From Tribonema minus (taxonomy: Eukaryota > Sar > Xanthophyceae > Tribonematales > Tribonemataceae): 64,000 nucleotides of DNA. The stretch spans positions 1-64,000 of the forward strand of contig JAFCMP010000134.1 of assembly GCA_017506865.1 (NCBI GenBank). The letters run 5' to 3'. Under the pieces are notes generated by a model. That model had not been told where the DNA came from. It searched no databases and saw nothing but the letters and a program-made list of their open reading frames with translations. The stretch's first letter is position 1, and each line of letters begins with the position of its first letter. Positions 1-44,498 of the stretch are shown in pieces. A program made the position numbers and the translations under genes.

Positions 1-97
1 GGGCTTGAAGTTGAAGTACGGTCCAGAGAACGGTCTCCCCCTTCCAGAGCTCCTGGCATTCATGCTACTTGTAGCATAAAACAGAGAACTTGTATCA
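1..97 (-). repeat. 3' LTR, partial (runs off the window)
   Basis: Bases 1-97 match 10840-10938 with two one-base gaps (GTACGG against GTACCGG, GGCATTC against GGCATTTC). In minus-strand sense this is the first 97 bases of the LTR, starting TGATACAAG just after the purine tract. The rest of this LTR lies before position 1. Confidence 0.9.
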
Positions 98-109
98 TCC
101 CTCTTCTTT
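98..109 (-). promoter_or_regulatory. 3' polypurine tract of the retrotransposon
   Basis: Minus-strand AAAGAAGAGGGA sits directly before the TG that opens the 3' LTR. This is the canonical position of the polypurine tract, the RNase-H-resistant primer for plus-strand DNA synthesis. The wider 16-base string (98-113) recurs exactly at 2861-2876. Confidence 0.85.
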
Positions 110-340
110 GAAAGGGCCGCCGTCCGCGGCGCCCACTAGACTGGTGCGCGGAAGTCGACGTTTTATGATACTTGATATTCAGCAATCCGCCTGCTCTGTC
201 GCATCATAGCCAGGTTCTTGTCTTGTCTAGGTTTAGGGTGCGTCACCGTTCACCGTTCCTTCACGCCAAGCGCGTGAGCTCAACACGGCTTCAGGGTCAA
301 CACCGATGCTTCACCGCTCCTTCGCACCACGCGTGCGAGT

Positions 341-3300
341 TCAACGCGATTCAACATTTGCGCAGGCGTTTCTGGGGTCTAGTATCCCCGGTCTCGTGAC
401 TTGCAGCTGGCAAATCAATTTGTATGTCGGCTTGAGCGGCTCCTCGGCGAGCTCGCGTGCCAGCATGAGGTTCCAAGATGAAGGTTCAGCTCGAGCGTCA
501 TCACGGTAATATTCGGCTCTGAGCTTCAAACGCTTCTCTAGAGGCTTTTGTCCTCGCGTGTTGGGGAACTCCACATCAAAAGTGAATTCTCCACAATCGC
601 GCTTGGCGGACACAAGCCTAAGCAAGACGCCGCGGCTCCATCCGGAAGGGAACCGGTAGCGGAGAACTTGGCCAACGTAGAGTGGTCCAAAGTCAGTTGG
701 CAAGCATGGACTCACAGTCACTCTTACATTAGCAGGCGGGTCAGCCGTAAGGCTGGAGTCAAAGGTAGGTTCTGGCTCGTTGCGCTGACGCGCTAACCTA
801 CGCAGTCTGTCGCGTACGCCTTCGGCCATGAGCTTAGCAGCCCGTACCTGAGAAGACGTTAAGTCCTCCCACGTGCCATCAGAGTAGCGTACACGCCAGC
901 GGGACAGCGCGAAGTCACGTACCTGGCCCCACAAGTAGTCAGTCGAGTTCGGCACATCGTTGACTTGCCGGACCACTTGCGTGCCGCAAGGGTATCGCAG
1001 CAATGCAGCATCTTTGGACAGCGTACAATCTTCGCGAGGAAGGTGACGTTCAGCGTATGGGGGAACGTTACCTTGGTGCTTGAGCTCATACAAAGCATGA
1101 AAAGTGTCCAGTACCCATGGTGGTATGAACACCAGTTCTACAAGCTCTTTCTCGCGCACCCACTCTGAAGTAGTGCCGTCGCGCGCCAGCCACTTGTATG
1201 ACCAGCCGCCGTCCTCGTCAGCTCTGCGGTCCAGTATCTGGCACAATTGCTGGTCAGGGTCCAGCTCTTGCAGTTGCGCGGAGTCCAGGAGGGCATGTAC
1301 TCCCTCAATGTCAAGTCGCGCGGGTCTGGGGTGATATGGCTTCATGTTTTCAACATGCGCGGTGGTCTCGCGTATGCGCGTGCCCATGAGTTGGCATTGA
1401 AAAGAAAGCCCTGAGTCACCGTACGGAGCTACTAGCTTCCAGGGGCCAGTGAAATGCTCCTCAATGGCACTTGCGCGGCCGCGTGAAGGTGGTTTCTTGA
1501 TCCACACATAGTCACCGACCTCCAAGTGTACAGTGCGTTGGATTTGGTCATTGCGAGCTTGAATGCGCTCAGCACGTTGCTGCAGCGCCTCGCCAACCGC
1601 CTCCTCAGCAAGTTTAAGATTTTCTTGCAGACGCTTTACCTCAGCATGTAGGTCTTGTGGACTTGCAGCCTCAGAGGTCAAAGCGTCAAGAGGGAAGCGT
1701 GCTTCGCGACCATAAACACAGAAGAATGGGGTCAGACCCGTCTCCTCCCTAGGCGTGTTCCTGAGCGCAAATTGCACGGCATCAAGGTATACATGCCAGC
1801 GTGCCTGGTAGCGAGAACAGAGTCTAGCAAGCGCTCGCTTGACGCGCCCATTCATGTTCTCAACGACGCCGTTAGACTGGGGGTGATATGCGCTGGTTTC
1901 AATCTTGTGCACTTTAAAGAAGGTGCAGAGCGTGGTTATCAGCGCACTCATGAATTCTGCGGCCCTGTCAGACATCAGCTCTTCCACAAGCGCGCCGCAC
2001 TCAAAGAGCACTCTTGCCAGTAGGGGTGCGGCCTCAGCTGCTGATCGTGTCTTTACGGGGAAAAGCCAACAGTAGCCTGACCTAGCTTCGGTGATGATGA
2101 GCAAGTATCGATGCCCTTCTGAGGAAAGGACGCCGACTTCGGTGTAGTCCACATGCAAGCGTTGCCACATGTGTGTAGATGGCATCAGTGCTTGCTTGTA
2201 CCTGGCAGTGGACTGCGGTTTGGTTTGTTGACAAGGGACGCATGAGCGTACGTAGTCTCGGACGTCAGCGCCTAACCCTCTCCAATACATGCGTTCCAGC
2301 ACCTTTGCGTGCGTGGCAGCAGTCGAGGGGTGTTGAGCACTGCCATCATCATGGCAAAGACGGAGCACAAGTGGCTTCAAAGCGTCGGGGACCACCCACT
2401 GAGTAATTAAGGTGCCCTTCTTTGACCGACTTGCCATGAAGTGCACGAGTAAACCGTCAGGTTCAACTGTGAAAAACTCTTGGTTCTGGCTGACAAATTT
2501 GGCAAGGCTAGGGTCAGGGGTCTGGCCTTGTGTTTCCAGATAGTGCTTCACAGATGAACAGAAATGGTCACTTTCCTGCCAACGCACAAAGTTTTTGCGT
2601 TCCAGCATAGCAGGTGAAGACTCTAGGCGTGAGTCAGACTCTCCAGTCTGGGTTGACATATTGTCATCTGAAGTATCTGCTTCAGCGTCTTCAGCTCCAA
2701 GGGCAAGGTCAGTGATTTCGCTAGTTTCGGTTGGAGCAGTTGCATCTCCAAGCGGCGAGAGTATCGCAGCGCAGCTGTCCCAAATGTGCTCAGAATACGA
2801 GCCCAATTTCATGCTGCAAAGCATGGAAACGAGGGGAGTGTTTTCTAGTTCTGGTTCACCTCCCTCTTCTTTGAAAAGCGCGGTGTGCACGCACGCGCTC
2901 TCGTGCATGGTATCACTGAGGTCATGTACCTCCTGAGGTGTCAATGTACCCATGCAGTTGCTCAGTTTTGTAGATATTTGTGCAAGTTTGTTAAATTTAA
3001 AAGCCGTGCCTCCCGGGCATGCCGTATAAGCACCTATGCGGCCTAGAAATGCTGGTGAGTCTTGCAGTTGTTCATCCTCAAAACGTACCCCAGACGGAGG
3101 TGCAGGTCCAGCATCGGTGCAGTCGGGCCACTGCTCGTCAGTGTGCTCGTACTGCCTAGGTCCGATGATCTCCGTCATCTGAGGCATGCGTGAAGGGCAG
3201 TCTGCATTGCCATTGTCTTTGCCAGGCCTGTGTACGACCATGATGTCGTATTCCTGGAGACGCATGGCCCAATGTAGCAGCTTGCTATTGTGATTGTTCA

Positions 3301-6300
3301 AGGTCAAGAGCCAGCGAAGCGCAGACGCGTCGGTTACGACGGTTACAGGTCTGCCCCAAATGTAACCGCGGAAGTTGTTCAAAGCTAGCACTACAGCCAG
3401 ACACTCTAGTGCAGTAGCACCAAGTTTTGCGTCCTGCACTGAGTTAATCTTGCTGAAAAATGCCACAACTACCTCTCTGGCAGGTTTGCCGTCAACTGTG
3501 TTGACACGGCGCGTGCTGGCCCAGGGGAAGTCCTTGTGCCGTTCACGTAATTTGTCTAGTGGCACGAATTGAGATAGAACACCAGCAACGGCTAGCTTGC
3601 TTGCGTCTGTATGTACTATAAAAGGTAGGTCAAAGTCTGGGTGCATGATCACAGGAGCGTTTGACATGGCGTGCTTGAGTTTGGCCAGCGCCTCTTGGCG
3701 GCGTTTGGTCCACGACATGTCAGCGCCATCACGCGTACACTCGACTAGGGGAGCTGCAATATGCGCGAACCGATGTATGTAGCGCCTATAGTAATTGAAG
3801 CACCCCATGAGGACTTGCATTAGCCGTTTATCTACCTTGCCGTCCTTGCCTACGGGTGGCATCATGTCGACCATGGCTTTTACTTTGTCCTCACATGGCT
3901 TGATTCCATACTTGCCCACCTTGTGGCCTAGGTATGTAACTTCTTCGGCAAAGAGTTGGCACTTGTGTCTAGACACACTCATGCCGTACTCTTCCACGCG
4001 TCGAAGTACATCGTCCAAGTGAGCTATATGGTCTTCTAAATTCTTGCTGTGTACGAGCACATCATCAACGTACACGCACGCATGCGTTTGCCTGGCTGAG
4101 CCTAGGAGCTCATGCATGCATCTGGTGAATATGCTTGGCAGGCACACCAACCCAAACGGCGCGACCTTGTACTCCCAGAGTGAGCCATCAGGTGCCCGGA
4201 ATGCCGTCTTGCAGGTTGATTCTCTAGTCATAGGTATTTGCCTGTAACCAGAAGCAAAGTCTAGTGCCGAGAATATGCGTGAGCCCGAGCATTTCTGAAC
4301 CAAGTCGTCCATATTGCCAAGCCCATACTCATCACGGCGTGTAACTCTGTTGAGCGGCCTATAGTCAACGCAGAAACGGACCTTGTCCTTCTGAGTCACC
4401 AGCACTGGATTGCTAGCCCAAGGACCATTGGCAGGTCTGATCTGTCCGCGTTTGCGCTCATTTTCAATGGCTTCAAATATGATTTTAGCTTCGCGTTCAG
4501 CCCACCTGCGTGCCCTGTCGGCGATGGGCGCTGCGTCGCCTGTGTCAATGTCCACGTCAAAACGGTCCGTCACCTTGGGGTTCTTGGGGTCCTTGGCAAA
4601 GGCGCCTCGTCGCCGGCGAAGCACCTCCATGGCGCGGTCATAATAGGTGACGCCGTGTTGATCGCGTTGCTTGAGGATGTTGAAGATCTCCCCGTTCTTG
4701 TCACACAGCACTTCACGTAGCTCCTCGTCTGTGCAAGTTCCCAGCGAGGCATTGTGCTCCTCTGCCACCTTGTGTCTGAATGCGGCTCGTTCCGCCTCAG
4801 CGCGCATGGCAGGGTCTGGTCTTGGCGAGTCGTGTTCTGGCACACACGAGGGGTCTGGCTGCTGCACAGGTCTTGATCTGTTTACAGCAGGTGTATCTGG
4901 TGCGTTTTGCCCAAGGTGTCTCAACGCAATTCTTGTCAAGTTAGTCACAAGCTCCTCTTTGCCAATGTCTAGGCTGCAGATCATGCCAGGGGCCTCAATG
5001 ACGCCCAGCACTGCACCTCTAGGCACAAACACTGGCGCAGTGGAAGTGTTCTCGACTAACATCCCTAGTGGCTTGTTAGGTGCTACAAAGTCCACCGTAT
5101 CCATGAGAACGGCACCTCTGGTGGCCAGCCTGTTTGTCATCACTGACGCCTCTGGCGCGTCAGGGGTGAGTAGCACTTCAACAGGGCCTGTGCACTGTAC
5201 TGGTGGATGTGACACTACTTCAATGGTTTTAGCGGTGTCAGCTTTAAGCACCTGGTCACACGTTGTACGCAGCAAATAAGTGCGACTAGGCAAAGTGGGC
5301 CTCTGAGAAGACTTGGCTCTTGTAACACCCACCTTGATCGTGTTGGCAGCTGGGGGGTCTAGAGTCCCCAACTTAGCTTGTTCATGCATGGTAACGGCAG
5401 GTCCAGCGGATCCAGCGGGGTGGAATCGCATGCCATGTTCATAGGTGATGGACGAGCCAAATTTGCCAAAGAAATGTGACCCCAAGATTGCCTCGTAAGG
5501 CAGGTCCACCACGTAAAAAGCGTGTGTGAATATGGTGTCTTTGAAGCGCACCTGGGCGTGCACTACACCTGAAATTGGCACAGACTTCTTGGCGTCTGCA
5601 AGTTCAACCGTGGTAAAATCACCCTCGGAGAGCGGGCAAATTGAACCCGGCGGCAACTGGTGTGCGCGTTCTGTGTTAATGAATTCGGCCTCGGCGCCGT
5701 TATCCACTAGCGCGTCAAGTACCAGTTCTTGTATGCCGTTACCAACTTGTGTGCGTATTGGCATGTGCACAAAGCCATTCTTCTTAGGTCTGCCGACTGC
5801 ACGTGCCCTATGTAGAATCTTGGGAGGCTTGTCACGTGCTATGCGTCTGGGTTGAGCCTTGAAAACATCGGTAGCAATGCTACTAGCACTAGGCTGCTGA
5901 GCATCTGCATCACTGTCAGTGTCGCTCATTTCTCGCATTGCAACAGCACGTGGCGTCTCGACATGCGGCGCATGAGAAGCATGAGGAGTCAAAGGCTCTT
6001 CCTCATCTTCACCGTACGTCCAAGGCGTCTGCGAAACCGGTGCATCACTTCCAGGCCCAAATGATGCAAGTATGGCTTGGCCTACATTGCGTGTAAAACG
6101 CTGGAAGTTCCGCACGCAAGCACTAGCTAGGCGCAGTATTGCAGGCCGATCAGGACCGGAGTCTACCATCCATTCTGGCGGGGGAGAAGTGCGATCATGC
6201 ACTACAACCTCACCTGGTAAGACGCCAGTAGCATCGCGAGGGCTTGGCCATTCCTCCGGCAAGGCAGCAACCGCGTGCAAGGCAAGCATGAGCGCTGACA

Positions 6301-9300
6301 CGCAATTGGGTTGCACTAAGTTTGCAGCCCAGCGCTTCATCTGAGTGACAGTCCCGGAAGGATGTGGCTCAAAGTAGCCCAGCAAGTTCATGACCTGATC
6401 AACAGTCAAGACAAGGGCCTTATTAACTGGTCCTGCGTCTTTCTCACGTGGCTGATAAGACGAGGAGGGGCCCCGCCCAGGCTGGCGAGTAACAGGGCTA
6501 GGGAGCGGCATGTCAGTAGACAGCACGCCTTGCGTCGTGGGTTGCCTCGGGTCCCAATAAAACGTGTCATGGGAGCAACCAAGATGTTCACGGACCGTAC
6601 GTGGCTTGCTGGTGCGAAAGCGCTCATTGAGAATTGCATTCAAGCGTGCAAATCGTTCAGGCAACCGAGCAGCATTTGCAGCTGACACAGTATAGACGCG
6701 CTCACGTGAAGATGCACCATTAACGTCGGTCCCACGAAACTGCACCTCATAGGTGGAGTACCCCTTTGTACCCACGACGCGGCAGAAGTCACGCCATGAG
6801 CTTGATAGGAGCATCCTAGGCACGTTTTCGTTGATGACTAGAGCTGGCAGGCAATCGGCAGCAATCTCTGCAACATGTACAAGCGTGCGTGCTGCATCGC
6901 CTTCAATCCCCATTCCCGCAGGGGAAAACTCAACACAAGAAGATGTATTCCAAATCGCGTCTGGCTTGAGGTGCTTGAGCCTCTCGCGAACTTGGGGGCT
7001 AGATACATCTGCACATATGACCTCGGTGTCAGGGAAGAGTTTGCTGTACTCCTCACATGTACGCTTGCAGTTGTCTACCGCTAAGACCACCTGCACGTCA
7101 ACGTCTGCTGCACGTGCGAACTCCTGCAACCCCCTATGTACACCCCCTATTCCACAGCACAACTCTGCCACCCGCAGCCGCCTTCTGTCCGAACGCCCCG
7201 CGTCGGCATCAGACGCCTCCTTAGTCTGCGGATATGACACGGGCGAAGTGGTGGAAGTAGGTGCAACGCATCTGGGGTCAGAGTCAGAAACGTCGGTCTT
7301 ACCTGGCTGCGGAGTGGCAACATCATGAGTGACATCTCGCGCTGCAAGCGGCGCGCAACTGGTCGTGTCACTGGTGCCCAGAACAGTCAAAGGTGCGCTA
7401 GTGTCAAGTGCGCATACTGCTGGAGCGTCACTGGCATCTGGAGCAGTCAATGGTGCGCTGGTGTCAAGTGCGCGTACTGCTGGCTCACTATGCGCATACA
7501 AGAACGTGGCTAACATGCAAGTGCCAACGGTCTTGTCAAGCATGCGTGTAGTGACTTGTGTGCCGGCCTCAGTCGCCGCTGGTTGCACATCTAGCGCTTC
7601 TAGCACATCTTGCGTGGAGCTAGTGCAATGACCGCTGTGCCCAAGTTGCACTGGCGCGTCAACATCTATGAGTGCACTAGGCAAGGTGTGGAAAGCGGTG
7701 AGCGAACACTCACTTGTCTTGGCGCGCTTGGCGCGCAGCTCGTCGCGGCGCTTCTCCAGCTTGTCGTGGGGCCTCTTGGCGGCCTTCAGGCGCTCGATGC
7801 GGTGCTCGTACCATTCCGGGCACTCTTGGCAGTGCTCCCGGAGCTTGTTCTCTCCACCAAAGTGCTTGTGGCACCCGAAGCACTCGTCGCTGCTGGAAGC
7901 CCTGGCCTTGTCGCTCTTGGGCTTGGCCGGCTGCTTGGCAGGCTTGGCGGGAGCCATCGCCGCAGCCCTAGGGTGGCCCTCGTCCGAAGTGTCCATAGCG
8001 GCGCTGCCGCGCATGGCGCTAGTCTTGGCCTTGGCGCCCTCGTTGACGATAGCGAGCGCCATGCCCTGCCGCTCAGCTGGCTCTTTGAGGTTGCGCTTGA
8101 AGTCTGCGAGCTGTTGGGGACGCATGGCTTTGTAAAAGTCCTCGGTGCGGTCGACCATGGCGTTCCAGTCTTCAAGTATAAGGCGCTCCTTGCGGAAGTC
8201 TTGGCGAAGGGGCTGCGTCATGCGGTTGGAGAAGTGCGTCTTGAGCATGGTGACGTCGACGACCGCGCCCTCGGGTCCGGCGCGCTCCGCAGCATGGAGT
8301 AGCTCGTCGGCAAACTGGCGTGGCGTCCAGTCTGGCTGCCAGACGAGGTCAGTGATCTCCATCATCGCCTCGGCGCGGTGAGCTGCGTTGTCGAAGCGCT
8401 TGGCGATCGCCGCCCAAAGCTCCTCGTAGTTCATGGAACCGCAGCCCTGAACGCGCTCCAGCCCCGTAACAGGGTCCTTGTGCGCGATGATGAGCTGGTC
8501 TTGCTGATCCGCGGTCAGGCAACGGCGCAGAGCGAAGTCCCACTTGTCGTAGGGGACACTGTTGTAGTGGGCCGCCTGCTCGAAATGGCGGCGCGTCGTC
8601 TCGGTTGCGCCGGGGCGGAAGGGAATGGGGAGCGCCGTAGGGTTGAAGAACTTCTGCCAGCTCACGTCTTCATGGTGGCTAGAGCTCGCAGTGGCGGCAG
8701 CTGCAGGCGCGGCGAGTGGCGCTGCGCCCTCGAACGGCGCGCGCGCGGGGTTGATGACGTTGGCGAAAAGGCCGCTACTGCTAGTAGGCGCGGGGGCATA
8801 GCTGTGGCTAGCGGTGGGCGCGAGTAGGTCCGTCCCGGGATAGCCCACGGGCATTGCGCGAAGCTGCTCCTCTTGGGTGCGCTGGGCAGCTTCGGTGAAG
8901 AGCGTCGGCGCGGTGAAGTTGACAAAGTGCGCCAGCGCCGCCGGTCCGGCGCGGCGCGCCGCATCAAAGTAATCTCGAATGCGGCGGTACCGCTCGACGC
9001 GGTCCGCGTGACGCCGCAGGTCCGATGCGCGCAGGGCGCGGCGGTGACGCTCCGCCTCGATGCGCGAGCGCCAGTCGGCGTCAGCTTCGGCCTCGATGGC
9101 TAGCTGCAGGGGCGTGGCGTGGGCAGTAGGCAGAGGACGCCGCTCGCGCTCCTCGTACAGCTCCTTGATCTTGGCGTCCGCGGCTAGAGTGTCGCGCTTG
9201 GCTTTGTCACGAGCAGCGTCATCTTGGGTAATGCGCTGGCCAAGCTCGACCTCGATGCCGCGGGCGACGCGCTCAACGTCGTCAGAAGAGGTCGGGGGGA

Positions 9301-9826
9301 CGGCGGCGGCGCGTGGAGTTGCAGCGGTGCCGGCGCTGAAGAGGATGGCTGGGTCGAGGCTAGCAGTGGTGCTAGTAGCTGGACGCACCGAAGCGCTCAC
9401 GCGCTCTGCAGCACGGCGCAGAGCCTCGTCGCTAATAGCGGGGAGAGCGGCGCGAAGTCCTCGGACGATGTCGTCCATCTGCTCTCGACCATCACCGGAA
9501 GCCGGGGCAGGTGCGGCGGATGTCGCGACCGGCAGGTTTCCGGAGGACGCGGGGGGACCTTGAGCTTGAGCGGCAGTGACAGGCGGAGTGGCAGTCGGTG
9601 TAGTCCCAGCGCTCGCAGGGGTCGAGGCGACCGCAGCCGACATGCCGCCCTGATCGGCAGGAGGCGCCGACACAGGGTGCACAGGGGGGGGCTGTGCCTG
9701 CGGATCCGCACCGCCACCGCTACTCTCACCGCCGGTTCCCGCGCCACCCGTTTCCCCAACGGAGGCTAAGGCCGTCGCAGGCTGTTCGGCGTTGCCAGTG
9801 TGGATAGCACTTCCTCCCTGAGACAC
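341..9826 (-). CDS. Gag-methyltransferase-Pol polyprotein, 3161 aa
   Basis: One continuous ORF from ATG at 9826 to TGA at 341. Order by residue: Ala/Pro/Thr-rich disordered N-terminus (1-200); charged helical region; gag-like domain (about 386-585); zinc finger with Cys649 and Cys652; low-complexity linker with a 60-base repeat; cytosine-5 methyltransferase (about 880-1185); retropepsin with DNGA at 1375-1378; reverse transcriptase with YVDD at 1919-1922; RNase H with Asp2074, Glu2141 and Asp2166; integrase zinc site (His2492, His2499 and a CxxC near 2528) and a DDE core at Asp2560, Asp2620, Glu2656 with 35 residues between the last two; a GPY/F-like segment; a chromodomain-like module (about 2862-2897); and two Tudor-like modules (about 2960-2992 and 3045-3110). 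Gag and Pol share one frame, so Gag-to-Pol ratio is not set by frameshifting here. The readers are assigned by pattern only. Confidence 0.95.
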   Translation of the reverse strand: MSQGGSAIHTGNAEQPATALASVGETGGAGTGGESSGGGADPQAQPPPVHPVSAPPADQGGMSAAVASTPASAGTTPTATPPVTAAQAQGPPASSGNLPVATSAAPAPASGDGREQMDDIVRGLRAALPAISDEALRRAAERVSASVRPATSTTASLDPAILFSAGTAATPRAAAVPPTSSDDVERVARGIEVELGQRITQDDAARDKAKRDTLAADAKIKELYEERERRPLPTAHATPLQLAIEAEADADWRSRIEAERHRRALRASDLRRHADRVERYRRIRDYFDAARRAGPAALAHFVNFTAPTLFTEAAQRTQEEQLRAMPVGYPGTDLLAPTASHSYAPAPTSSSGLFANVINPARAPFEGAAPLAAPAAAATASSSHHEDVSWQKFFNPTALPIPFRPGATETTRRHFEQAAHYNSVPYDKWDFALRRCLTADQQDQLIIAHKDPVTGLERVQGCGSMNYEELWAAIAKRFDNAAHRAEAMMEITDLVWQPDWTPRQFADELLHAAERAGPEGAVVDVTMLKTHFSNRMTQPLRQDFRKERLILEDWNAMVDRTEDFYKAMRPQQLADFKRNLKEPAERQGMALAIVNEGAKAKTSAMRGSAAMDTSDEGHPRAAAMAPAKPAKQPAKPKSDKARASSSDECFGCHKHFGGENKLREHCQECPEWYEHRIERLKAAKRPHDKLEKRRDELRAKRAKTSECSLTAFHTLPSALIDVDAPVQLGHSGHCTSSTQDVLEALDVQPAATEAGTQVTTRMLDKTVGTCMLATFLYAHSEPAVRALDTSAPLTAPDASDAPAVCALDTSAPLTVLGTSDTTSCAPLAARDVTHDVATPQPGKTDVSDSDPRCVAPTSTTSPVSYPQTKEASDADAGRSDRRRLRVAELCCGIGGVHRGLQEFARAADVDVQVVLAVDNCKRTCEEYSKLFPDTEVICADVSSPQVRERLKHLKPDAIWNTSSCVEFSPAGMGIEGDAARTLVHVAEIAADCLPALVINENVPRMLLSSSWRDFCRVVGTKGYSTYEVQFRGTDVNGASSRERVYTVSAANAARLPERFARLNAILNERFRTSKPRTVREHLGCSHDTFYWDPRQPTTQGVLSTDMPLPSPVTRQPGRGPSSSYQPREKDAGPVNKALVLTVDQVMNLLGYFEPHPSGTVTQMKRWAANLVQPNCVSALMLALHAVAALPEEWPSPRDATGVLPGEVVVHDRTSPPPEWMVDSGPDRPAILRLASACVRNFQRFTRNVGQAILASFGPGSDAPVSQTPWTYGEDEEEPLTPHASHAPHVETPRAVAMREMSDTDSDADAQQPSASSIATDVFKAQPRRIARDKPPKILHRARAVGRPKKNGFVHMPIRTQVGNGIQELVLDALVDNGAEAEFINTERAHQLPPGSICPLSEGDFTTVELADAKKSVPISGVVHAQVRFKDTIFTHAFYVVDLPYEAILGSHFFGKFGSSITYEHGMRFHPAGSAGPAVTMHEQAKLGTLDPPAANTIKVGVTRAKSSQRPTLPSRTYLLRTTCDQVLKADTAKTIEVVSHPPVQCTGPVEVLLTPDAPEASVMTNRLATRGAVLMDTVDFVAPNKPLGMLVENTSTAPVFVPRGAVLGVIEAPGMICSLDIGKEELVTNLTRIALRHLGQNAPDTPAVNRSRPVQQPDPSCVPEHDSPRPDPAMRAEAERAAFRHKVAEEHNASLGTCTDEELREVLCDKNGEIFNILKQRDQHGVTYYDRAMEVLRRRRGAFAKDPKNPKVTDRFDVDIDTGDAAPIADRARRWAEREAKIIFEAIENERKRGQIRPANGPWASNPVLVTQKDKVRFCVDYRPLNRVTRRDEYGLGNMDDLVQKCSGSRIFSALDFASGYRQIPMTRESTCKTAFRAPDGSLWEYKVAPFGLVCLPSIFTRCMHELLGSARQTHACVYVDDVLVHSKNLEDHIAHLDDVLRRVEEYGMSVSRHKCQLFAEEVTYLGHKVGKYGIKPCEDKVKAMVDMMPPVGKDGKVDKRLMQVLMGCFNYYRRYIHRFAHIAAPLVECTRDGADMSWTKRRQEALAKLKHAMSNAPVIMHPDFDLPFIVHTDASKLAVAGVLSQFVPLDKLRERHKDFPWASTRRVNTVDGKPAREVVVAFFSKINSVQDAKLGATALECLAVVLALNNFRGYIWGRPVTVVTDASALRWLLTLNNHNSKLLHWAMRLQEYDIMVVHRPGKDNGNADCPSRMPQMTEIIGPRQYEHTDEQWPDCTDAGPAPPSGVRFEDEQLQDSPAFLGRIGAYTACPGGTAFKFNKLAQISTKLSNCMGTLTPQEVHDLSDTMHESACVHTALFKEEGGEPELENTPLVSMLCSMKLGSYSEHIWDSCAAILSPLGDATAPTETSEITDLALGAEDAEADTSDDNMSTQTGESDSRLESSPAMLERKNFVRWQESDHFCSSVKHYLETQGQTPDPSLAKFVSQNQEFFTVEPDGLLVHFMASRSKKGTLITQWVVPDALKPLVLRLCHDDGSAQHPSTAATHAKVLERMYWRGLGADVRDYVRSCVPCQQTKPQSTARYKQALMPSTHMWQRLHVDYTEVGVLSSEGHRYLLIITEARSGYCWLFPVKTRSAAEAAPLLARVLFECGALVEELMSDRAAEFMSALITTLCTFFKVHKIETSAYHPQSNGVVENMNGRVKRALARLCSRYQARWHVYLDAVQFALRNTPREETGLTPFFCVYGREARFPLDALTSEAASPQDLHAEVKRLQENLKLAEEAVGEALQQRAERIQARNDQIQRTVHLEVGDYVWIKKPPSRGRASAIEEHFTGPWKLVAPYGDSGLSFQCQLMGTRIRETTAHVENMKPYHPRPARLDIEGVHALLDSAQLQELDPDQQLCQILDRRADEDGGWSYKWLARDGTTSEWVREKELVELVFIPPWVLDTFHALYELKHQGNVPPYAERHLPREDCTLSKDAALLRYPCGTQVVRQVNDVPNSTDYLWGQVRDFALSRWRVRYSDGTWEDLTSSQVRAAKLMAEGVRDRLRRLARQRNEPEPTFDSSLTADPPANVRVTVSPCLPTDFGPLYVGQVLRYRFPSGWSRGVLLRLVSAKRDCGEFTFDVEFPNTRGQKPLEKRLKLRAEYYRDDARAEPSSWNLMLARELAEEPLKPTYKLICQLQVTRPGILDPRNACANVESR
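2861..2876 (-). promoter_or_regulatory. Candidate central polypurine tract
   Basis: Sixteen bases identical to 98-113, the 3' polypurine tract plus its upstream flank. This copy lies inside the ORF, between RNase H and integrase, where it encodes FKEEGG. Lentiviruses and yeast Ty1 use a second internal tract to start plus-strand synthesis. Function here is inferred from identity and position. Confidence 0.6.
6272..7189 (-). other. Cytosine-5 DNA methyltransferase domain inside the polyprotein
   Basis: The order and spacing of C5-methyltransferase motifs are complete: motif I AELCCGIGG (S-adenosylmethionine loop, residues 887-895), a motif II/III-like stretch with VVLAVDN and ICADVSS, motif IV SSCVEFSPAGM with the catalytic cysteine at 964, motif VI NENVPRM, motif VIII ASSRERVY, and a motif X-like RWAANLVQPN (1165 onward) followed by a helix. 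The usual Pro-Cys of motif IV is Ser-Cys, but the nucleophile and the ENV glutamate are kept, so the domain is probably active. It lies between the zinc finger and the protease in the same frame and would be released by the element's protease. From memory, methyltransferase-bearing retrotransposons are known in dinoflagellates (Symbiodinium) and the charophyte Klebsormidium; whether this is the same lineage cannot be told here. Confidence 0.93.
7385..7486 (-). repeat. 60-base tandem repeat in the polyprotein linker
   Basis: The block starting AGTCAAAGGTGCGC at 7385 recurs at 7445 with period 60, an exact multiple of three, so the frame is kept. It encodes repeated ALDTSAPLT peptides just ahead of the methyltransferase, probably a flexible linker. 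Confidence 0.8.
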
Positions 9827-10839
9827 ACGACAAAGTTGGCAACTCGTCGCTAGTACGCACTTCTGTGTAGAGCGGGCAAACGCTCAAAATGTGCGCGTCG
9901 ACGGCGTGCCAGAGCGCTCAAGATTTTCAAAGTGCTCAAAGTTTATGCAATCTGCTCAGAGGTTATGCAGAAGCCGATAATTCCCCTTTCCACTTGAAAA
10001 AGCGTGCCAGGGTCGGCCTAGGCGAGTCTAGCCAGCGTGTGGACAACTCCACATTGTCAACTCAAAATGCGTCGGGGTGATCAGTCCCGTTGCATACATG
10101 AGTTTTCACGCTGCACGCAACATTGTGCCGAGGTGCACGAATCAGTTAGCGGCGCTCACACTAACTGACGGAAAACGCTGTTGCATGGTTGCGTGTCCAT
10201 GCTCACGGATTCCTCAAAGTAGCTGGAGCACCTAGTCTGACAGTACAGCCAGTTGTGCCTAGCAGCCGTGTGCTGGAAGGGAAACACCGTGAGCTTCGTT
10301 GATCGCATGCTGTCGTCTGCAGGACTAAACAGCACGGACTTGCCATAGCATGCGAGCAACTGATAGACGCTGGGCAGTCTTAGTACATAGCAGCGTCCCT
10401 ATGTGTCTGTTGCACCGCCAGCGCGACCCCGTCGCGGACGCAGTACTTCAGAACACCTTCGTGGCCTAAGTGCACGGCATTAAACTGTGTCGGAGTAATC
10501 GACAGAGTCTTCAAAGTCTAGCACCGATGTTGTCGCCGGCAAGTGGAGCTGAGCCATGATACAGCAAAGCAGCCTGGAGTCTATGTTCTTGAGCAATAGA
10601 GCTGCTGAGCTGCTAGTGACATCAAAGTGCAACCAACTTGCAGGGCAAACATCAGTGGGGCAAACAAAGACACACCTGTGTAGACATGACTGAAGAAGGA
10701 GAGTGAGCCCAATGGATATGGCTCAGCTCCAGAGGTCTTGCTGTCTCCCAGCCAGGATGGCCTCTTGTTGCTTGCCTTGTAGGTGCCTCGAGCACTTGTT
10801 GTTGAAGCAAAAAAAGCCGTCCTCCTAGTTGCTGGCACA
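9827..10839 (-). other. 5' LTR body and leader of the retrotransposon
   Basis: This stretch lies between the ORF start and the repeated LTR end. The inner LTR boundary cannot be fixed because the other LTR is off the window. One candidate is 10200, where the plus strand reads CCA then TG (CCA as a tRNA 3' end, TG as LTR terminus), giving an LTR of about 739 bases. The adjoining bases do not match any tRNA I recognise. Confidence 0.5.
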
Positions 10840-10938
10840 GGGCTTGAAGTTGAAGTACCGGTCCAGAGAACGGTCTCCCCCTTCCAGAGCTCCTGGCATT
10901 TCATGCTACTTGTAGCATAAAACAGAGAACTTGTATCA
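10840..10938 (-). repeat. 5' LTR outer end
   Basis: Direct repeat partner of 1-97. The plus strand ends GTATCA at 10938, which is TGATAC in element sense and marks the first base of the element. Flanking DNA starts at 10939. Confidence 0.9.
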
Positions 10939-13611: not shown

Positions 13612-13932
13612 AACCAGTGGGCTTGCGCAAAATTTTAGACTATTCCTCAAGCATCCAGGACCCGCCGTTGTATGTGAAGTTGAGAAGTCACCCGGCAAAT
13701 CATCAAATTGAATGTACATACAGATCATCCACATCCCATCGAAAGTCTACCCCCAAATTGGGGAACTTACACTAACCCTATGCTCTAACCCTTCCGGTTC
13801 ACCAATGACTGCAAGAGCAAACACCGGTTGAAGTTCCACCCGACTGAGCATCACCATCGGTGGGCACAGGTGTACACTCGGTGCGACATTACTAACATTC
13901 CTTCCCCTCACTCTGCGCACACAGATGAGACA

Positions 13933-15077
13933 ATGGCATCGACAGAGCAAACCGCTGGCCGCGCGCACGACAGCGTCGCCGTGCCGCTGGCGAAGATGCA
14001 GCCACAGGACCCCGACCCCATCGGCTCCCTCCCCCCCGATCTCCTCCCCCGCCGCCTCACGCCGGAGGAGAGGGGGGCACTGGACGCAATATTCGCCCAA
14101 GAGGACACTGACGCGCCAGCGGCCTCTGTAGGCGGGACTCCGGTCTCCGGCAGGTCGTTCAGCAGACTCCGCCCAGGGGGCTGGCTGAACGACGAGGTCC
14201 TCAATTGCTGGCTGGCGACCCTGAGGCCCCGCTTCCCGGGGACAGTGTTTGCCAACACGCAGTTCTACACGACGCTGATGGCGGGCATTCCACATATCCC
14301 CATGGGGTTGGGGGTGGGTTACCATTTCAAAAACGTCGAGAAGTGGTGCGAGGGGCGCAGGGGGGAGGAGAGCGGCCTGGCCAGGCTCTGGCGGGACCCG
14401 GCGGTGACGAGGTTTGTGGTCCCTGTGCACGCGAGGGGGAACCACTGGGTGCTGGTGGCTGCGGATCTCAACACTCACGTTGTCTCCGAGTACGACTCTA
14501 TGGGGACAGGGGAGGCGCAGGGGGGGGGGGTTGAGGAGGGGGGGGCGGAGAGGGTGGAATCACGGCTGGTCCCTACATACCCCCCCCCGACTCCAAATCC
14601 CTCGATGTGCTGGGGTTCCTTGACGACCTGTACCGTAAGATCAAAGAGGACAGGACTGCCCTGCCCCCCGGCAGATGGGGCGTCGGCAGAGTAACAGTTT
14701 CGGAGGCCCCGCGGCAGCCTGACGCGTGCAGCTGCGGGGTGTTTGCGGCGTTTGCCGCGGCGGCGGTCGCCGCCGCCCCCCAAGGCGCCCCCCCTGACTT
14801 CCTGTCCTACTCGATCCCGCACGCCCAAGGACCAGCCTGGCGCAGTGCCCAGACCCTTCGCGCGGCGTTGATGCGGGAGACGGTAGCACGTGTCTTGCTG
14901 GCAGAGTCCTCCCGGGAGGAAGCGGAGCGCACGGCAGAACAGACGGAGCTGGCAACGGCGGCCGAGGTACTGCTGGGCATGGCGCCCGCCCTGGCGGCGG
15001 CGGCGGCAGCAGCGGCGGATGCGGCGGCGGCGGCGGCGGCGGCTGAGGCAGAGGCCGAGGCTGAGGCGAAGGTAGCT

Positions 15078-34444: not shown

Positions 34445-37028
34445 CTATTCATTATGCAACGCCTGTGGATGGTGTTGAACATGTTCAGAGGCCTCCACGA
34501 CATCCTTCAGACCTCGCAACAGCACCAGATCTGCTACTGGCCCTAGAATGGAGTCACGGCTGTGCCGCCGTGCATGCAACAATCTATGTTGCTGCTCACT
34601 ACTACTGCCGCTGCCGCAGCAGCTACTGCCAGCGTCTGTGCCCTGATCTAATGTACGTACGCTGGACATGGGCGACAACAAGTCACTCGGACTGCTACAT
34701 TCACTGGGCGGTGCTGTGCCCGTAGATTCCCCTGCCTCCAATAACACAAGCGCTTTGTCGGCAGTGCCAGCGGCATCAGAGTCACGACGCTTCAGGGGCT
34801 CGATGCCCCCTGCCAAAAGCTCCACCCCCTCCTCCCCCTTGACCCCCCCCCCGTGTCGGTTCTCTCTACGGTTGCTCAGCGATTTGCCCAGCAGACCACA
34901 CATGAACAGGCAGGCGCCCACGGCGTGGCGCCCCGTAAATGGCTTGGGAAAGAGCGCAAACGACAGGACCAAGTTGAGCGCCTTGCGTGATGCGCTGGTC
35001 AGAGTTGACGTCAGCGCCCCATAGCCCTTGGTCACCGCGGTTGTGCACGTTGCCCCAAAGTACCCTGCTGCCGCGTAGAGAGCGATGATGGGGACGCTGC
35101 GGAAGCCGCCCTCTGCTGTTATGAAGCGCATGCCTACAACTAAGTCGCCGCTGATGGCTGCACTGGCTGCTTGGTAGAGGGCCGCCCCGGAGTAGGTAAA
35201 GAAGATGACCTGAGAGGCATCATTTACATGGAGGGGGGTGGAGACAGGCAAGTGAGGAATGAGCAACGCTTGGTTCAGAGGGCCTTCAACTCAATATTGT
35301 TGCCGATGTAGGTAAAGGATGTCCAATCTGTGCATGCAGACGACTTTCAAGCGGGTGCTCAGCCTGCTCATCAAAGACAGGCACGGCACCAGCTGGCTGC
35401 TACGTCACCAGTTCCATCTATGCATGGTAACTTGTATTGAGATGACAGCGCACAGCAGCAAGGGAATGCTCGCATCGGCATCTGATGCTGTGCATCATGT
35501 GTGGCGTGCATGTCCTGAAGTACTGTAGAAGAAGGGAAGGGCTCAGATGACCGGTCTCAGCGATTTATTGAAAAGAAACACATATGCTCATGAAGCCACC
35601 AGTATATGTAGTGTATGAGGTGGAGATACAGCCTGTCACCGTTGGACATTGCCGGGACAACTCGTGCTGCAACACATCTGCTGCTGGTTGTTGGCATGGG
35701 AGCGAGTGACTGCCGCTGCTGTCGGTCATTGTTGGGCGTTATTTGAGCCGACAACAGCTCACCCTTTCTGTCCGCAATGCCACCAATGCAGCACTGTGCT
35801 GGTGATAGCACCATTGTCAGCCCCAAACGTCAGTTTATGAACAACATGAATGGCAAAGTTCACTAAAAGACATGCCACTGATGAAAACGAATCAAACGAT
35901 CGTAGAGCTCCACATGCCACTGATACTGCCAAGCTCACCTCCTCTGGTGTCGCGTCGTATCGCGCCAGCAGCACCTCCGCCAAGTTGGAGTAGCAGCAGT
36001 CCATGAAAACACACCCCACCATTAAAAAAACGCCCACGTAGTTGAACATGGCTGGCGACGATGCGTCCGCCTGTAAGAATAAACCCAAACCCACTACCAT
36101 CGTGCCGACACACAGATATGAACGCGTCTTATACTGCTTCCCCAGAAAGAAAGCGCCCCACAGCATCATTGGCACAGCCTGCAAGGCGCACGACAGGATG
36201 GGCACAATTAGAAGGAGCCAGCGGACATGATATGAATTGCAGGTTGAATGATGGGTTTACAATGTGGCAGCAACAGCGACATGCTTTCGCCTACAGATGT
36301 AGCAGCAAAGCCGACCAGGCATGTGAAACACCAAGCAGCATTATTGACCACCTGGCGGTACGGCACTGTGCAAACCAGAATTTGTGAATTGTTGCAGCGA
36401 CAGTGAAGGTCGTACCTTGGTGCTCTTGAAGAGCGTCTTCGTTGCATAGTTGAGGTACATCATCCCACAGTTGCCAAGCACCATGGAGCTGCCTTGTGCA
36501 AGCGCCAGCAACATGTACGAGCGCAACGGTATGCGCCTGATGTGTGCTTCCCCGAGATACATTCTCTGTAGCTTGGCATACAGAGCAAACGACGAGGTCT
36601 GCAGCCAGCCAGAGGTGCAAACAGCAGTGGTGCAAGAGTGGTGGTAAGCACGGAGCAGTTCTGCTGAGCGCGGCGTTCAACTGGCATTCTGGAAGGTGAA
36701 TGTGAGTGGCAGGCGACGACATCTCATCAGCCACAAGCTGTCGTAAGCATGTCGAGAGCGCAGCTGACTTTCGACAAGTACTGACCTGAAGAAGTGACAT
36801 GAACAGCCCAAGCCGTCGCTTGAAAACATGGACCACCAGATACTCCTGGAGGCAGCCATAAAGAAGGTTGAAGCCTATAGCCGCTGCCACGAGCAGGGCG
36901 AAGGCTACATATGGCGACAAGTGCGACACATTGATGCAGCCCAAAACTCGTGCGGAACCAGGAGCCTTGTGTTGCTCGTCGACCTCTCGTGCAGCTGCTG
37001 GCGTGTGATGCTGATCTCCAGCTTTCAT
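34445..37028 (-). CDS. UAA/SLC35B-family nucleotide-sugar or PAPS transporter
   Basis: Four exons, all phase 0: 36786-37028, 36416-36598, 35939-36178 and 34445-35209; 476 residues. Several hydrophobic helices are visible (YVAFALLVAAAIGFNLLYG, YLCVGTMVVGLGLFLQ, VGVFLMVGCVFMDCC). The family hallmarks are NYATKTLFKSTK, directly followed across a splice junction by AVPMMLWGAFFLGKQY, and TSASRKALNLVLSF. SLC35B members move 3'-phosphoadenosine 5'-phosphosulfate or UDP/GDP sugars into the Golgi or ER. The B2/B3 (PAPS) branch fits best by memory, which would suit an alga that sulfates polysaccharides. Oddity: a hydrophilic tail of roughly 130 residues, rich in Ser, Glu and Gly, follows the last helix. 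The ATG at 37028 is preferred over the in-frame GTG one codon upstream. Confidence 0.88.
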
Positions 37029-39575: not shown

Positions 39576-42500
39576 ATGTTCGCCAGCTTGCGCCACGGTA
39601 GTGGAATGCTGATGCCTCGAGCGCGGTCCAGGCTGTGCTGCTGCAGTCAGCGCAGGCGTCATAACAGTGGTGCACTACTACAGAAAGTGCTGATCGCCAA
39701 TCGTGGGGAGATAGCCTGCCGGGTGATCAAAACCGCGAAGTCGATGGGCGTCGAGACTGTCGCTGTTTACAGCGAGCAGGACGCTGATGCCATGCACGTT
39801 GCCATGGCAGACGAGGCTTACGCCATTGGGCCGGCGCCTGCATCGGAGAGCTACCTCAGGGGCGAAGTAATCTTGGGAGTGGCTAAGCGCAGCGGAGCTC
39901 AGGCCATTCACCCTGGGTAAGCGCAACTTCGGTAACATTCTTAGCATCAAGAGTCCCTGTCATGTCGATCTGCTGTACGACCACCTTGTCTCAACAGTCA
40001 CACTGACAGTCACAGCTGCTTAGCAACCGAGTACGCTTCTTCATTCAAGTACGGTGCCGCAATCAAGACTGCTCGAGTGGGGTCCCCGATAGGCTACTTG
40101 CTGCATCTGGCACTGACATACATTTGCTTGCGACACCCAGCCATATTCGAGACCAGAGCTGTTGTTGGTTACTGTAATATCTGTGTAAGAGAGGAATGGC
40201 GATGCCATGAACGAAAGCTGTATCCTAAGGCTTTGTGCTAATGGGCGTGTGCCTGCCCAACCCTGATGCAGTACCAACCAATTGTCTGCGCTGAAGCATT
40301 CATGTTTGTCACTTTTTGGCAGTACAGCTTTTCAGTGCTGCACTGCCATCAACAAGGCTATGCTGCACTTGTGTGCCACTGTTAGCTGATGAGTGTCATT
40401 GTAAGATGCCAAGAGAACGGTAATCACATGCACAGCTCACATGTACGTGTCATGACGTTTGTCCTGCTGCAAATAGGTACGGTTTCTTGAGCGAAAATGC
40501 AAACTTCGCACAGGCCTGCGCGGACGCTGGCATCACCTTTGTCGGCCCCCCTGCCTCTGCCATCCTATCCATGGGCTCTAAGAGCATGGCGAAAACCATC
40601 ATGTCAGCGGCAGGCGTGCCGGTCACTCCCGGGTACCACGGCGAAGACCAATCTCCTGAGCGACTACTACAGGAAGCTAATGCCATTGGGTATCCAGTGC
40701 TGATCAAGGCGGTGATGGGGGGTGGGGGGAAGGGGATGCGCATTGTGCATACGCACAAGGACTTCCTAGGGGCGCTGGAGGCGTGCCAGAGAGAGTCTGC
40801 CAAGTCATTTGGTGACGCGCGCGTGCTGCTGGAGAAGTTCATCGCGGAGTCCCGCCATGTTGAAGTTCAGGTCTTTGCAGACACGCTGGGCAACGTCGTC
40901 TACCTGTCAGAGCGGGACTGTTCCGTTCAGCGCAGGCACCAGAAAGTTCTTGAGGAGGCGCCGGCGCCGCACCTTTCCCAGGAAGTGAGAACGGGCCTGG
41001 GTGAGGCGGCGGTGAGGGCGGCACGTGCTGTTGGCTATGTGGGGGCGGGGACGGTGGAATTTCTGATGGATGCGGCCACGCAGGAGTTCTTCTTCTGCGA
41101 GATGAACACTCGGTTGCAGGTGAGGAGTTGTACACCTCTGGAAACTTTTCAACCTCAACACCTCAAGTGTGCGCTCGGGTGTTCTGTTGTTAAATCCACC
41201 TGGTCTGCGTGTTCGAGCAATATTGTGCTTCGGGAGCAGCAGCAGCCGCCATACAAGTATGGTTGACTGTGGCAGATATGAGTCATGGTATAGAGGTGTA
41301 TGCTAACGCTGCATGCGTTGTGAAGGAACAGCACTGTATCAGCTTGAATGTTGCAAAAACACGGATGAACTTGAAGTACTGATTGGCCCAAGCTCAAAAA
41401 GTTTGAGTGCGCTTGTCCAGCATATGAGTTGTGCTGATATATCACTACGGGCTTGTACAGCGTAACACTTGGTCAGCGGCGACTGCTGTTGAACGACGTC
41501 CTCTGTCCCAGCAAATGGCCTTGGGCATATTCAGACATGGCTCAGCACTGTACCTTCACCTTCACTTTACCTCTACCCACACAGGTGGAGCATCCTGTGA
41601 CTGAGATGGTCATGGGGCAGGACCTAGTAGAGTGGCAGCTGCGTGTGGCATCAGGACAGCCGCTGCCCGTCATTGACCAGTCACTCCTGCAGCCTCTGGG
41701 CCATGCCATTGAGGCACGTGTGTATGCTGAGAACACGTCCAAGGGGCTCTTCCTGCCTGCCACTGGCACGCTCACGCGCATGCGCCCACCTGCACAGGGA
41801 GGCAACTCCAGGTGATATACACAGATACTAATGTACATACGCAAAAGTTATACACTTCAGTGATTTGCGATACGACATGTGCAAGTCATTGGGATGTCGG
41901 CACAGACATGCTTACAATTAGCATACTAGGCTGTACTGGCAATACATGTACGTTATTGCCTGAGGAGTCTTTTGGGATGTAAGGCTGCCATAGCAATGCT
42001 GTTGATGCCACAGCAAGTACGTGTTGCTTTGTGTTCTGCGTCCATGTGCTGGGCTCCCGGTGCCTGGTCCGTGCAACAGGTGCTTCTTACAGGACATACC
42101 ATGACCACATCAACCCAATGAACAGTGACTTGCTTTGCGATCAATGCGAAATGTCGAAACAGATAGCTTTGTGCTGATCATAGTCGTCTTGCTGCATCTG
42201 CTGTGACCGTGCTTGCGAAATGCAAGTTGGCAAAACGGTGGTGCAAGTGCTGGTGTGTTGCGATCGATGCTTTTTACGGTCACAACACACGGAATGAATG
42301 CGAGCAATCTGTCAGATCTGTGTACAGTATGCAGAATGCAGAATCAGCACAAGTAAGACCATGTTTTGCCAGCTGCTCAACCGCACGCGGTGCAATCTCA
42401 CCTTTGCCTTTGAAGCGCCACAGCCGGCAAATGCAGGTTGCAGTGTACATGTCCCTCATGCACCTTCACCTTCACCTTCCTGGTCCATGTCAGCCTGCAC

Positions 42501-44498
42501 CAATGCCGTCACGACTTGGCAGCCAGTGCTTGTCACAGCGTTTATGTCATGGTCATCATAACACTGTGTGCCTCTATGGGCAACATGCATGGTTGTTTAC
42601 GACATGAATAAGGTACACAATGAGGCTCATGCAAGTAGAAAGGCTCAACACAGTGGGTGATACTACACATCATGCCGCATCGCACATGGATGATGATCAA
42701 GCATGTGTGCAACATGCCCACCCTCACTCACACCATGTCTTGCCATCATGTTTCTCCCGCTTGGCTGCTGCCCAGGGGCATGGTGCGCGTGGACACCGGG
42801 GTGCGCGAAGGCGACACCGTCAGCATGCACTACGACCCCATGATCGCCAAGCTGCTCGCGTGGGGCGAGACTCGCGAGGCAGCCCTCACGCGCCTGGCAT
42901 CAGCGCTGCGCGAGTATCAGGTGCTGGGCGTACCTACCAACCTGGAGTTTGCTGAGCGCTGCGTGCGCCATCCCGCATTTGTGGCCGGCGGCGTCACCAC
43001 CAAGTTTCTGGAGACGTACGGTGCGCAGCTGGCGCAGTTCACCGCCGCAGCGCCGCCGCCGCATGCAGTTGCGCTGGGGGCACTGGCACTCATGCTCAAG
43101 CGCGAGGGCCGCATTGTTGCCGCTGCGCACAGCGGCGGCAGCGGCGGCAGCGGCGGCGGCGGCGGCGGCAGTGGCGCGCGGGGCGGGCCGTGGTCTGCTG
43201 CTGCGGGGCCTTGGCGTGTGAGCTCACACGGCATGCGGCGCTGCGCGCTGCGTCTGTCGGCCAGCACCGACGAAGAGGGCGGCAAAGCCACAGAGGTGTC
43301 GGTTGACTGCGCTGCTGACGGCAGCTATGTGGTAGCCGGTGTGCCGGTATCCGGGACGCTGACGGCAGATGGTGCACTGGCTGCAACTGTTGAGGGGCAC
43401 CGCTACCACTGCTCAGCAGCTGTGTCAGAGGGTGGCTTCGGCGGTGCGGCGAGTGTTACGCTGTGGCACCCCAGTGGGCCAGTTGAAGGCGACAGCCAGT
43501 GGCGCCCCCGCTATGATCTCAAGGTGCCTGCGCGTGCATCTGCGGGGGCGCGGGCAGGAGGGACGTCCGGCGCTATGGGCGTGCTCAAAGCGCCCATGCC
43601 AGGTACGGTAATGAGATTATGCTTGCTGTGTGTTCATGAACGACAAGTGCATTAAGTCAAACCAACTTCTGGTAGGCGCAGTTGCTTTCATCTTATAGTC
43701 CTCGTAGCACCCTCTGGTGTCTGGTCCTGAAGACATTGCATGCACTTTGGGTATTTGTGAGTACCACAGGTAATGTCATGTACTACCGCCTAGCTTTCAT
43801 GCACACAGAGAAGCGTGTCTACTTGAGTGGGGGATCAGGACTACGATAGCATGATAAAACCAATTAACATGCTGGTTGCATTGCCAGGCTGCTTTGTGGC
43901 TCAGGTTCCACATATAGTGTGGATGCTACTTGGAGTTACCATAATGCAAACGCAGGCTTGTGCGCATATTGAGCCACTTTATACATACCAGTTGAAGGCA
44001 CTTGTATGCAAGATGATGATTGTGTCCACCTACCGTGCAAGATTTGTGCTTGAAGTACATCTTTGTGTGTAGGTTTGCAGATATGACCGCACACTTGAAG
44101 CCATCTTGACCATTGTGCACAACCTGGTATTGCATTAATAGCTCCAGCTACATGTTTATGGCCGGCAGGGCTTGCACAGCACATCTGCTAACTTCCGCAG
44201 CACACTTGAAGTACCATGATGTGTACTCGTGCACACACAGCTCAGTATCTCACCATGTTGTATGCCTCCAATCACGTGTCTCACAGGCAAGGTCATACGC
44301 GTAATGGCCAAGCTGGGTGCGGCTGTCACGGCAGGCCAGGCCCTGGTGATTATGGAGGCCATGAAGATGGAACACACAGTCACCGCACACGCAGCAGGCA
44401 CTGTGGGTGCGGTTCACTGTGAAGAGGGGCAGCTGGTGTCTGAGGCTGCTGTACTAGTGACCATGGACCAGGGCAAGGCGGTGCCAGCTGCGGAGTGA
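39576..44498 (+). CDS. MCCC1: Methylcrotonyl-CoA carboxylase, biotin-containing alpha subunit
   Basis: Five exons with consistent phases: 39576-39916, 40477-41119, 41585-41811, 42776-43602 and 44287-44498; 749 residues. The Arg/Ser-rich start without acidic residues fits a mitochondrial presequence. Next come biotin carboxylase ([26 protein letters not shown]), the ATP-grasp glycine loop [18 protein letters not shown]-type [15 protein letters not shown], and [14 protein letters not shown]. The last exon is the biotin carrier domain with EAMKMEH; the biotinylated lysine is residue 706. The phrase GYHGEDQS favours methylcrotonyl- over propionyl-CoA carboxylase. The enzyme carboxylates 3-methylcrotonyl-CoA in leucine breakdown in mitochondria, with a beta subunit encoded elsewhere. 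Oddity: a Gly/Ser run (about 43132-43171) inserts between the two halves. Confidence 0.95.
43130..43173 (+). repeat. GGC-rich run coding for a Gly/Ser linker
   Basis: GGCAGC/GGC triplets encode [14 protein letters not shown] inside the carboxylase, in the linker between biotin carboxylase and biotin carrier domains. Such a run is prone to length change. Confidence 0.75.

Follow-up and report, generated by a model that had tools for sequence, protein, structure and literature searches.

The window (the whole stretch of DNA analysed, 64,000 bases) comprises bases 1-64000 of contig C134 of Tribonema minus, and the genome searched is a 158-Mb assembly of 554 contigs. Window positions 1-10938, on the minus strand, belong to a Ty3/Gypsy element that is young and about 11.2 kb long. 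We are almost entirely confident that this is a recently inserted Ty3/Gypsy (Metaviridae) retrotransposon with a cytosine-5 methyltransferase inside its Gag-Pol polyprotein.

The 5' LTR (10557-10938, minus strand; 382 bp, TGATACA...TGTATCA) contains only four CpG dinucleotides and is identical to the complete 3' LTR found on contig C404. It is abutted directly by the primer binding site TGGCTCAGCTCCACTTG (10540-10556, minus strand), a type that recurs with 4 mismatches in 19 bases at three further loci, L025, L026 and L039. At the other end of the element, the polypurine tract AAAGAAGAGGGA (98-109, minus strand) precedes the start of the 3' LTR (1-97, minus strand), which the contig end reduces to a 97-base stub with two one-base gaps relative to the 5' LTR. 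These gaps are absent from C404, which carries the same insertion, shares the flank up to window base 12969, and has a 3' LTR identical to the 5' LTR together with a 4-bp target duplication, GTCA. The copy on contig C23 likewise has a 4-bp duplication, TACA. The hallmarks of the Ty3/Gypsy group are therefore present, namely identical TG...CA LTRs, a short duplication, a primer binding site, a polypurine tract and the order protease, reverse transcriptase (RT), RNase H and integrase. A DIRS-like repeat arrangement was not found, as the element has two ordinary LTRs.

A single Gag-Pol open frame of 3161 amino acids (341-9826, minus strand), whose first ATG is codon 62, encodes in order a gag-like region, a zinc finger, the methyltransferase, protease, RT, RNase H, integrase and tentative chromatin-reader modules. 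The placement of a cytosine-5 methyltransferase between zinc finger and protease in one frame, proposed earlier by a sequence-only reading, is confirmed by this domain order and by the motifs described below. The C2HC finger (7820-7882, minus strand; residues 649-669, C-x2-C-x12-H-x3-C) is nucleocapsid-like by position, and a similar spacing of cysteines and histidine occurs in four related database proteins (P0001-P0004). The methyltransferase domain follows at 6182-7183 (minus strand; residues 882-1215). Next comes an aspartyl protease-like domain (5471-5722, minus strand), a weak domain match (E 0.14) whose motif (5681-5710, minus strand) reads DNG in the window, DCG in P0001, DTG in P0002 and DSG in both P0003 and P0004. 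The RT (3917-4387, minus strand; E 6.9e-32, YVDD at 4049-4078) has Ty3 as its closest solved structures (E 3.7e-59). Domain matches also identify RNase H (3248-3637, minus strand) and the H2C2 zinc-binding domain of integrase (2213-2392, minus strand), and the integrase core (rve; 1880-2164, minus strand) scores E 1.7e-6, under the curated cut-off. The tentative modules at the C-terminus are chromodomain-like (1133-1246, minus strand), Tudor-like (845-982, minus strand; PF21743 at E 0.0019, under the cut-off, and at E 3.3e-5, likewise under it, in locus L030) and a third small beta module that is Tudor/SH3-like (521-679, minus strand).

Elsewhere in the window lie a Ulp1/SUMO-protease-like ORF (13828-14694, plus strand; Peptidase_C48, E 1e-5), the C-terminal part of a UAA-type nucleotide-sugar transporter (34445-35266, minus strand), and biotin carboxylase exons (40487-43655, plus strand), the first part of which is closest in PDB to methylcrotonyl-CoA carboxylase alpha. 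Long overlapping ORFs occupy both strands of a GC-rich, strongly skewed stretch at 58154-60163, and the minus-strand ORF there has no Pfam match. Short plastid psaA/psaB-like fragments are dispersed among other contigs, including C168, C490 and C107. One such fragment, over 51 aligned residues, has as its best matches the photosystem I entries 9YGV (giant kelp, PMC13219633) and 9M4F, a chain of which bears the name XLH7; this most probably reflects an ochrophyte and, on our reading of the chain name, perhaps a xanthophyte.

Motifs and predicted fold of the methyltransferase

The domain contains cytosine-5 motifs I, IV with its cysteine, VI (ENV) and VIII (RxR). Motif IV reads SSCVEFSPAG (6914-6943, minus strand; catalytic Cys 964), motif VI INENVPRML (6809-6835, minus strand) and motif VIII SSRERVYTV (6686-6712, minus strand). 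These are followed by a target-recognition region (6431-6601, minus strand) that resembles bacterial methyltransferases of the HindV/LlaJI type, and by a motif X-like segment (6278-6322, minus strand). The initial description of a complete enzyme needs qualifying at two points. In the window subfamily a serine replaces the proline of the motif IV PC (SSC), and the GN expected in motif X is absent, with QPN in its place in the window and MPR, IPE or ANA in relatives. The predicted structure nevertheless retains the fold across the motif X segment despite the missing GN.

Because this subfamily lacks the motif IV proline and motif X lacks GN, catalytic activity is uncertain. One could argue from these substitutions, and from an ENL in locus L036, that a weak or dead domain has been retained as a nucleic-acid-binding part of Gag. 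We think this quite improbable, given that the catalytic cysteine, the Glu-Asn of motif VI and the Arg-x-Arg of motif VIII are invariant in both of our alignments (11 and 9 sequences), that PPC is kept in other families, for example in locus L035, and that dN/dS lies between 0.06 and 0.17 in computable pairs.

By sequence, the nearest PDB match is the tRNA enzyme DNMT2 (E 2.9e-8, or 2.3e-11 with a profile), which also ranks first in the PDB by Foldseek. This raises the prospect of an RNA methyltransferase that would act, DNMT2-like, on genomic RNA or the tRNA primer in the particle, a reading that we judge improbable. The DNMT2 sequence matches are confined to the motif I-VIII half that is common to C5 enzymes, whereas the target-recognition half resembles bacterial DNA enzymes, and the predicted fold is like that of M.HaeIII and M.HhaI, both of which VIA-align ranks about 2 Z ahead of DNMT2. 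No Dnmt3 chain occurs among the 30 PDB sequences matched by profile. We infer that this predicted C5 methyltransferase acts on DNA rather than RNA, with CG specificity.

Copies, co-descent and selection

At E values up to 0.001, the window domain has at least 121 matches in the genome, several of which are pieces of one copy. The PF00145 profile has at least 123, partly different from these. Such counts include some assembly duplicates, because C404 represents the same locus as the window. Fragments aside, identities fall in steps of about 97-100%, 76-83%, 62-63% and 33-36%, which indicates several families, and several of the copies found with the window domain have open frames of more than 3000 amino acids. 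A methyltransferase restricted to this copy, or missing from all others, had been named beforehand as an outcome that would count against the proposal, and neither was found: a listed methyltransferase lies 0.8-7.5 kb upstream of 113 of the best 150 RT matches. Ordered by falling identity, the fractions are 30/32, 18/18, 39/56 and 26/44. One contig was probed from a family that has no listed methyltransferase, and the methyltransferase is present there. The pairing with RT used 181 pooled methyltransferase places, with eight fragment rows left out; these places include at least three genes that are solitary or presumed so (two on C223 and one on C181, two of them being L045 and L046, discussed below). 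Since many copies and related families carry it, the enzyme seems to be an established functional component of these elements rather than an accident.

For L049 and L052 an RT adjoining the methyltransferase was found, and L047, L050, L051, L053 and L054 are presumed to lie inside retroelements from likeness and, for some, from frame length. The RT match at C311:6682-7302 lies within an open frame of 6208 amino acids, twice the usual length, and there may perhaps be two elements in that one frame.

Among 20 loci compared over 4 kb, one is the window itself. Ten of the 19 others lie within 3 bases of it (including C404, the same insertion), eight differ by 25-292 bases, and one, L001, is only partly in common with it. 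The four database proteins (ENA or JGI), two of which are full length, show the same domain arrangement as far as their lengths reach. P0001 has 62% identity to the window and is near-identical to family B of this genome, and P0002-P0004 have 46-48% identity to the window.

Trees of the RT and the methyltransferase from 11 elements agree except in the order of L035 and L036 (support 80 in the RT tree, 93 in the methyltransferase tree) and the place of P0004 (54 and 81, respectively). Five of ten sequence pairs gave methyltransferase dN/dS values, which are 0.060, 0.110, 0.133, 0.162 and 0.170; three of the remaining pairs were too alike and two were taken as saturated. Values of the same order were obtained for protease (0.070-0.279) and RNase H (0.038), although these are few and most RT and integrase pairs gave none. 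The methyltransferase has been kept under purifying selection and has descended together with the RT.

Origin of the enzyme

Bacterial relatives of the enzyme (L055-L058) were obtained by tblastn against phages and plasmids. The L058 methyltransferase adjoins a gene annotated as a HindVP-family endonuclease; L056 is a Rhizobium relative and L057 an Aminobacter fragment. HindV has a CG-containing, GACGC-like site as its specificity. On the faecal scaffold L055, two tandem methyltransferase genes are followed by two longer ORFs that, on our reading of their position and of an NTP-binding motif in the first, appear McrB- and McrC-like. This layout resembles the LlaJI cassette, LlaJI itself being outside the compared set. 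LlaJI is described as having two 5mC enzymes and two restriction subunits, one of them McrB-like, with the site GACGC/GCGTC (PMC1459862).

Enzymes of the LlaJI/HindV kind are the closest type found for both the catalytic and the target-recognition regions, and in the alignment the likeness extends through the latter. They differ from the element enzyme in being free-standing and bacterial, with partner nucleases, in keeping the GN of motif X and in having no retroelement around them. A tree of 32 sequences, including 15 element enzymes and few bacterial types and built without full-length eukaryotic DNMTs, splits the element enzymes from all others with aLRT/UFBoot supports, read from the Newick file, of 97.7/98. 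The element enzymes and four bacterial enzymes of HindV/LlaJI type are separated from the rest at 91.7/98 in this same tree, which lacks full eukaryotic DNMTs. Five partial PDB stretches, L048 (broken frame) and the near-duplicates P0001, L052, L053 and L054 were left out of it. By hhalign, the local score to the HindV/LlaJI type is 284, and four other groups of 2-4 sequences each reach 182, 168, 122 and 83. With a model of the bacterial recognition core, nine element enzymes out of 20 (the nine contain two near-duplicate pairs) beat all 1063 scored shuffles and 11 do not. Outside the elements, none of the 11 further enzymes compared (bacterial, phage or database) does so, nor does either of the two solitary host enzymes. 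Under the whole bacterial-type model and the whole C-terminal-half model (motifs IX and X), the element enzymes score lower than several other bacterial enzymes, a result that could reflect catalytic motifs held in common and more rapid divergence of the element sequences.

Capture from a eukaryotic host or a giant virus instead of a bacterium must also be weighed. The published captures that are assigned to a family are eukaryotic Dnmt3, according to PMC5890265, and giant-virus enzymes are among the BFVD structural matches. Set against this, a phage enzyme heads the BFVD matches (E 4e-22, compared with 1e-13 for the next), the tree, albeit without full eukaryotic DNMTs, and the target-recognition comparison favour the bacterial type, and the two solitary host enzymes L045 and L046 fall in the tree as a type different from the element enzyme. 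We consider a eukaryotic or viral source unlikely, and a bacterial-type origin likely from the comparisons above. The solitary enzymes themselves are cytosine-5 methyltransferase ORFs of about 360 amino acids (L045, C223:937700-938900; L046, C181:39850-41000) with motif IV FPCVGLS, and C223 holds a second methyltransferase place besides L045. The earlier suggestion of an independent capture also appears sound, as the enzyme groups with the HindV/LlaJI type and the published Gypsy case has a Dnmt3 (PMC5890265, as there described).

CpG distribution and a possible role in the element's life cycle

The four CpG of the window LTR compare with 23.8 in shuffles (observed/expected, o/e, 0.17), a ratio below that of all 275 neighbourhood windows of equal size. 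The o/e is 0.92 in the element body, 1.01 in the leader and 0.72 in the rest of the window. For further loci, where the LTR start was not located, the 380 bases before the conserved primer binding site served as a stand-in for the LTR. This stand-in gives 0.30 in L025, 0.28 in L026 and 0.20 in L039, three loci taken from two related groups, against 0.92-0.99 in their leaders; among 276 neighbouring windows, no more than 3 are as low as 0.30. CpG scarcity is not confined to the LTR regions of the fetched loci. It also occurs in, for instance, parts of L035 and L036, and in some loci it affects the 3' portion of the sequence coding for the methyltransferase, as at L030 3895-4180 and similar places. 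The window ORF has 705 CpG where synonymous-codon shuffles have 768, and is thus below expectation, and the LlaJI site GACGC/GCGTC occurs in it 53 times compared with 41.5 in shuffles, slightly over-represented rather than depleted.

Changes found in one copy only were counted in eight older copies, L001 being excluded. C-to-T changes affect 26 of 3763 cytosines at CpG and 27 of 12324 other cytosines (Fisher p 5e-5); in one of the copies, L019, changes of other kinds are likewise over-represented at CpG. From this C-to-T excess, the copies are probably CpG-methylated by some agent.

One explanation would be self-limitation, whereby the enzyme marks the element's own copies for host silencing, so that host damage is reduced and the copy number tolerated. 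The transition excess in older copies suggests methylation of the kind that this would need, and the tentative reader-like C-terminal modules could steer insertion to silent chromatin. However, the CpG-poor LTRs look like an escape from promoter methylation rather than submission to it, and near-identical copies (the ten loci within 3 bases over 4 kb, of which C404 represents the same insertion) speak for recent amplification. We therefore regard self-limitation as unlikely.

The account we prefer begins with an ancestral element that would have acquired the enzyme, most simply in a single event, from a HindV/LlaJI-like restriction-modification gene of a bacterium or phage. Capture would predate the split of the present families, with selection keeping the enzyme since. 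As part of Gag-Pol, the enzyme would be packaged in the particle and then either released or left tethered, and it may methylate CG-containing sites on the new double-stranded cDNA or the fresh insert. Incoming DNA could thereby come to resemble methylated host DNA, and the LTR promoter, almost free of CpG, would present few targets and remain expressible. A contrast in methylation between promoter and body is therefore predicted from the CpG-poor LTR. Compared with its neighbourhood, the element body shows no shortage of CpG, as heavy self-methylation over the long term might have been expected to produce. We give the overall account, from bacterial-type capture through selection to self-methylation with a CpG-poor promoter, about an even chance of being correct, and the self-methylation mechanism by itself we propose tentatively, at somewhat poorer odds. 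More speculative still is a self-marking unit, in which the body would be CG-methylated, the LTRs purged of CpG, and the chromodomain- and Tudor-like readers would place copies in matching chromatin. If this doubtful arrangement were true, a writer, a target-free promoter and a reader would be travelling together in a lineage that already existed before its many families diverged.

Retrotransposon methyltransferases are a known kind: there are published examples from dinoflagellates and one charophyte, in which the enzyme is Dnmt3 or an orphan (PMC5890265). That article describes SymbioLINE, SymbioDIRS-Dnmt3 and KnitGypsy-Dnmt3, with purifying selection, and reports that two SymbioDIRS enzymes methylated CG de novo in yeast, where KnitGypsy was inconclusive. 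The Symbiodinium elements SymbioDIRS-Dnmt3 and SymbioLINE-Dnmt resemble ours as retroelement-borne C5 methyltransferases in very many copies, but they are DIRS (tyrosine recombinase) and LINE elements rather than Ty3/Gypsy, with Dnmt3 or an orphan enzyme, as that article presents them. KnitGypsy-Dnmt3 of Klebsormidium nitens (de Mendoza et al. 2018, PMC5890265), compared here by its description, is likewise a Gypsy-type element: its polyprotein includes a C5 methyltransferase that is under purifying selection, and it exists in several copies. Its enzyme, however, is of Dnmt3 type, within a Pol ORF and accompanied by DIRS-like repeats, whereas the Tribonema element has HindV/LlaJI-type affinity, ordinary LTRs and the domain between zinc finger and protease of Gag-Pol. 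The view that comparable elements are reported only from dinoflagellates and a charophyte agrees with the cases of PMC5890265 and may be too strict, as an opinion article asserts that retrotransposons encoding Dam and Dcm also exist in stramenopiles, red algae and green algae (PMC6338049). Dnmt3 is also mentioned in Copia and DIRS elements (PMC12344493).

Among stramenopiles, Ectocarpus is described as having Gypsy elements with chromo-, Tudor and NADAR domains and as lacking cytosine methylation (PMC12477816). One of these, Gypsy-10_Ec32, whose Tudor domain has a homolog in Tribonema, shares with our element a C-terminal Tudor-like reader; it differs, compared by description, in that the available portion of that article mentions no retrotransposon cytosine-5 methyltransferase (PMC12477816).

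What would be new in Tribonema is a bacterial-type capture that has reached a high copy number, probably in a further lineage of algae. The element combines near-identical recent copies with a deep family structure, and it makes testable the standing question of why a parasite of the genome should methylate DNA. It would also be a case in which part of a restriction-modification system has become a eukaryotic mobile element's own equipment.
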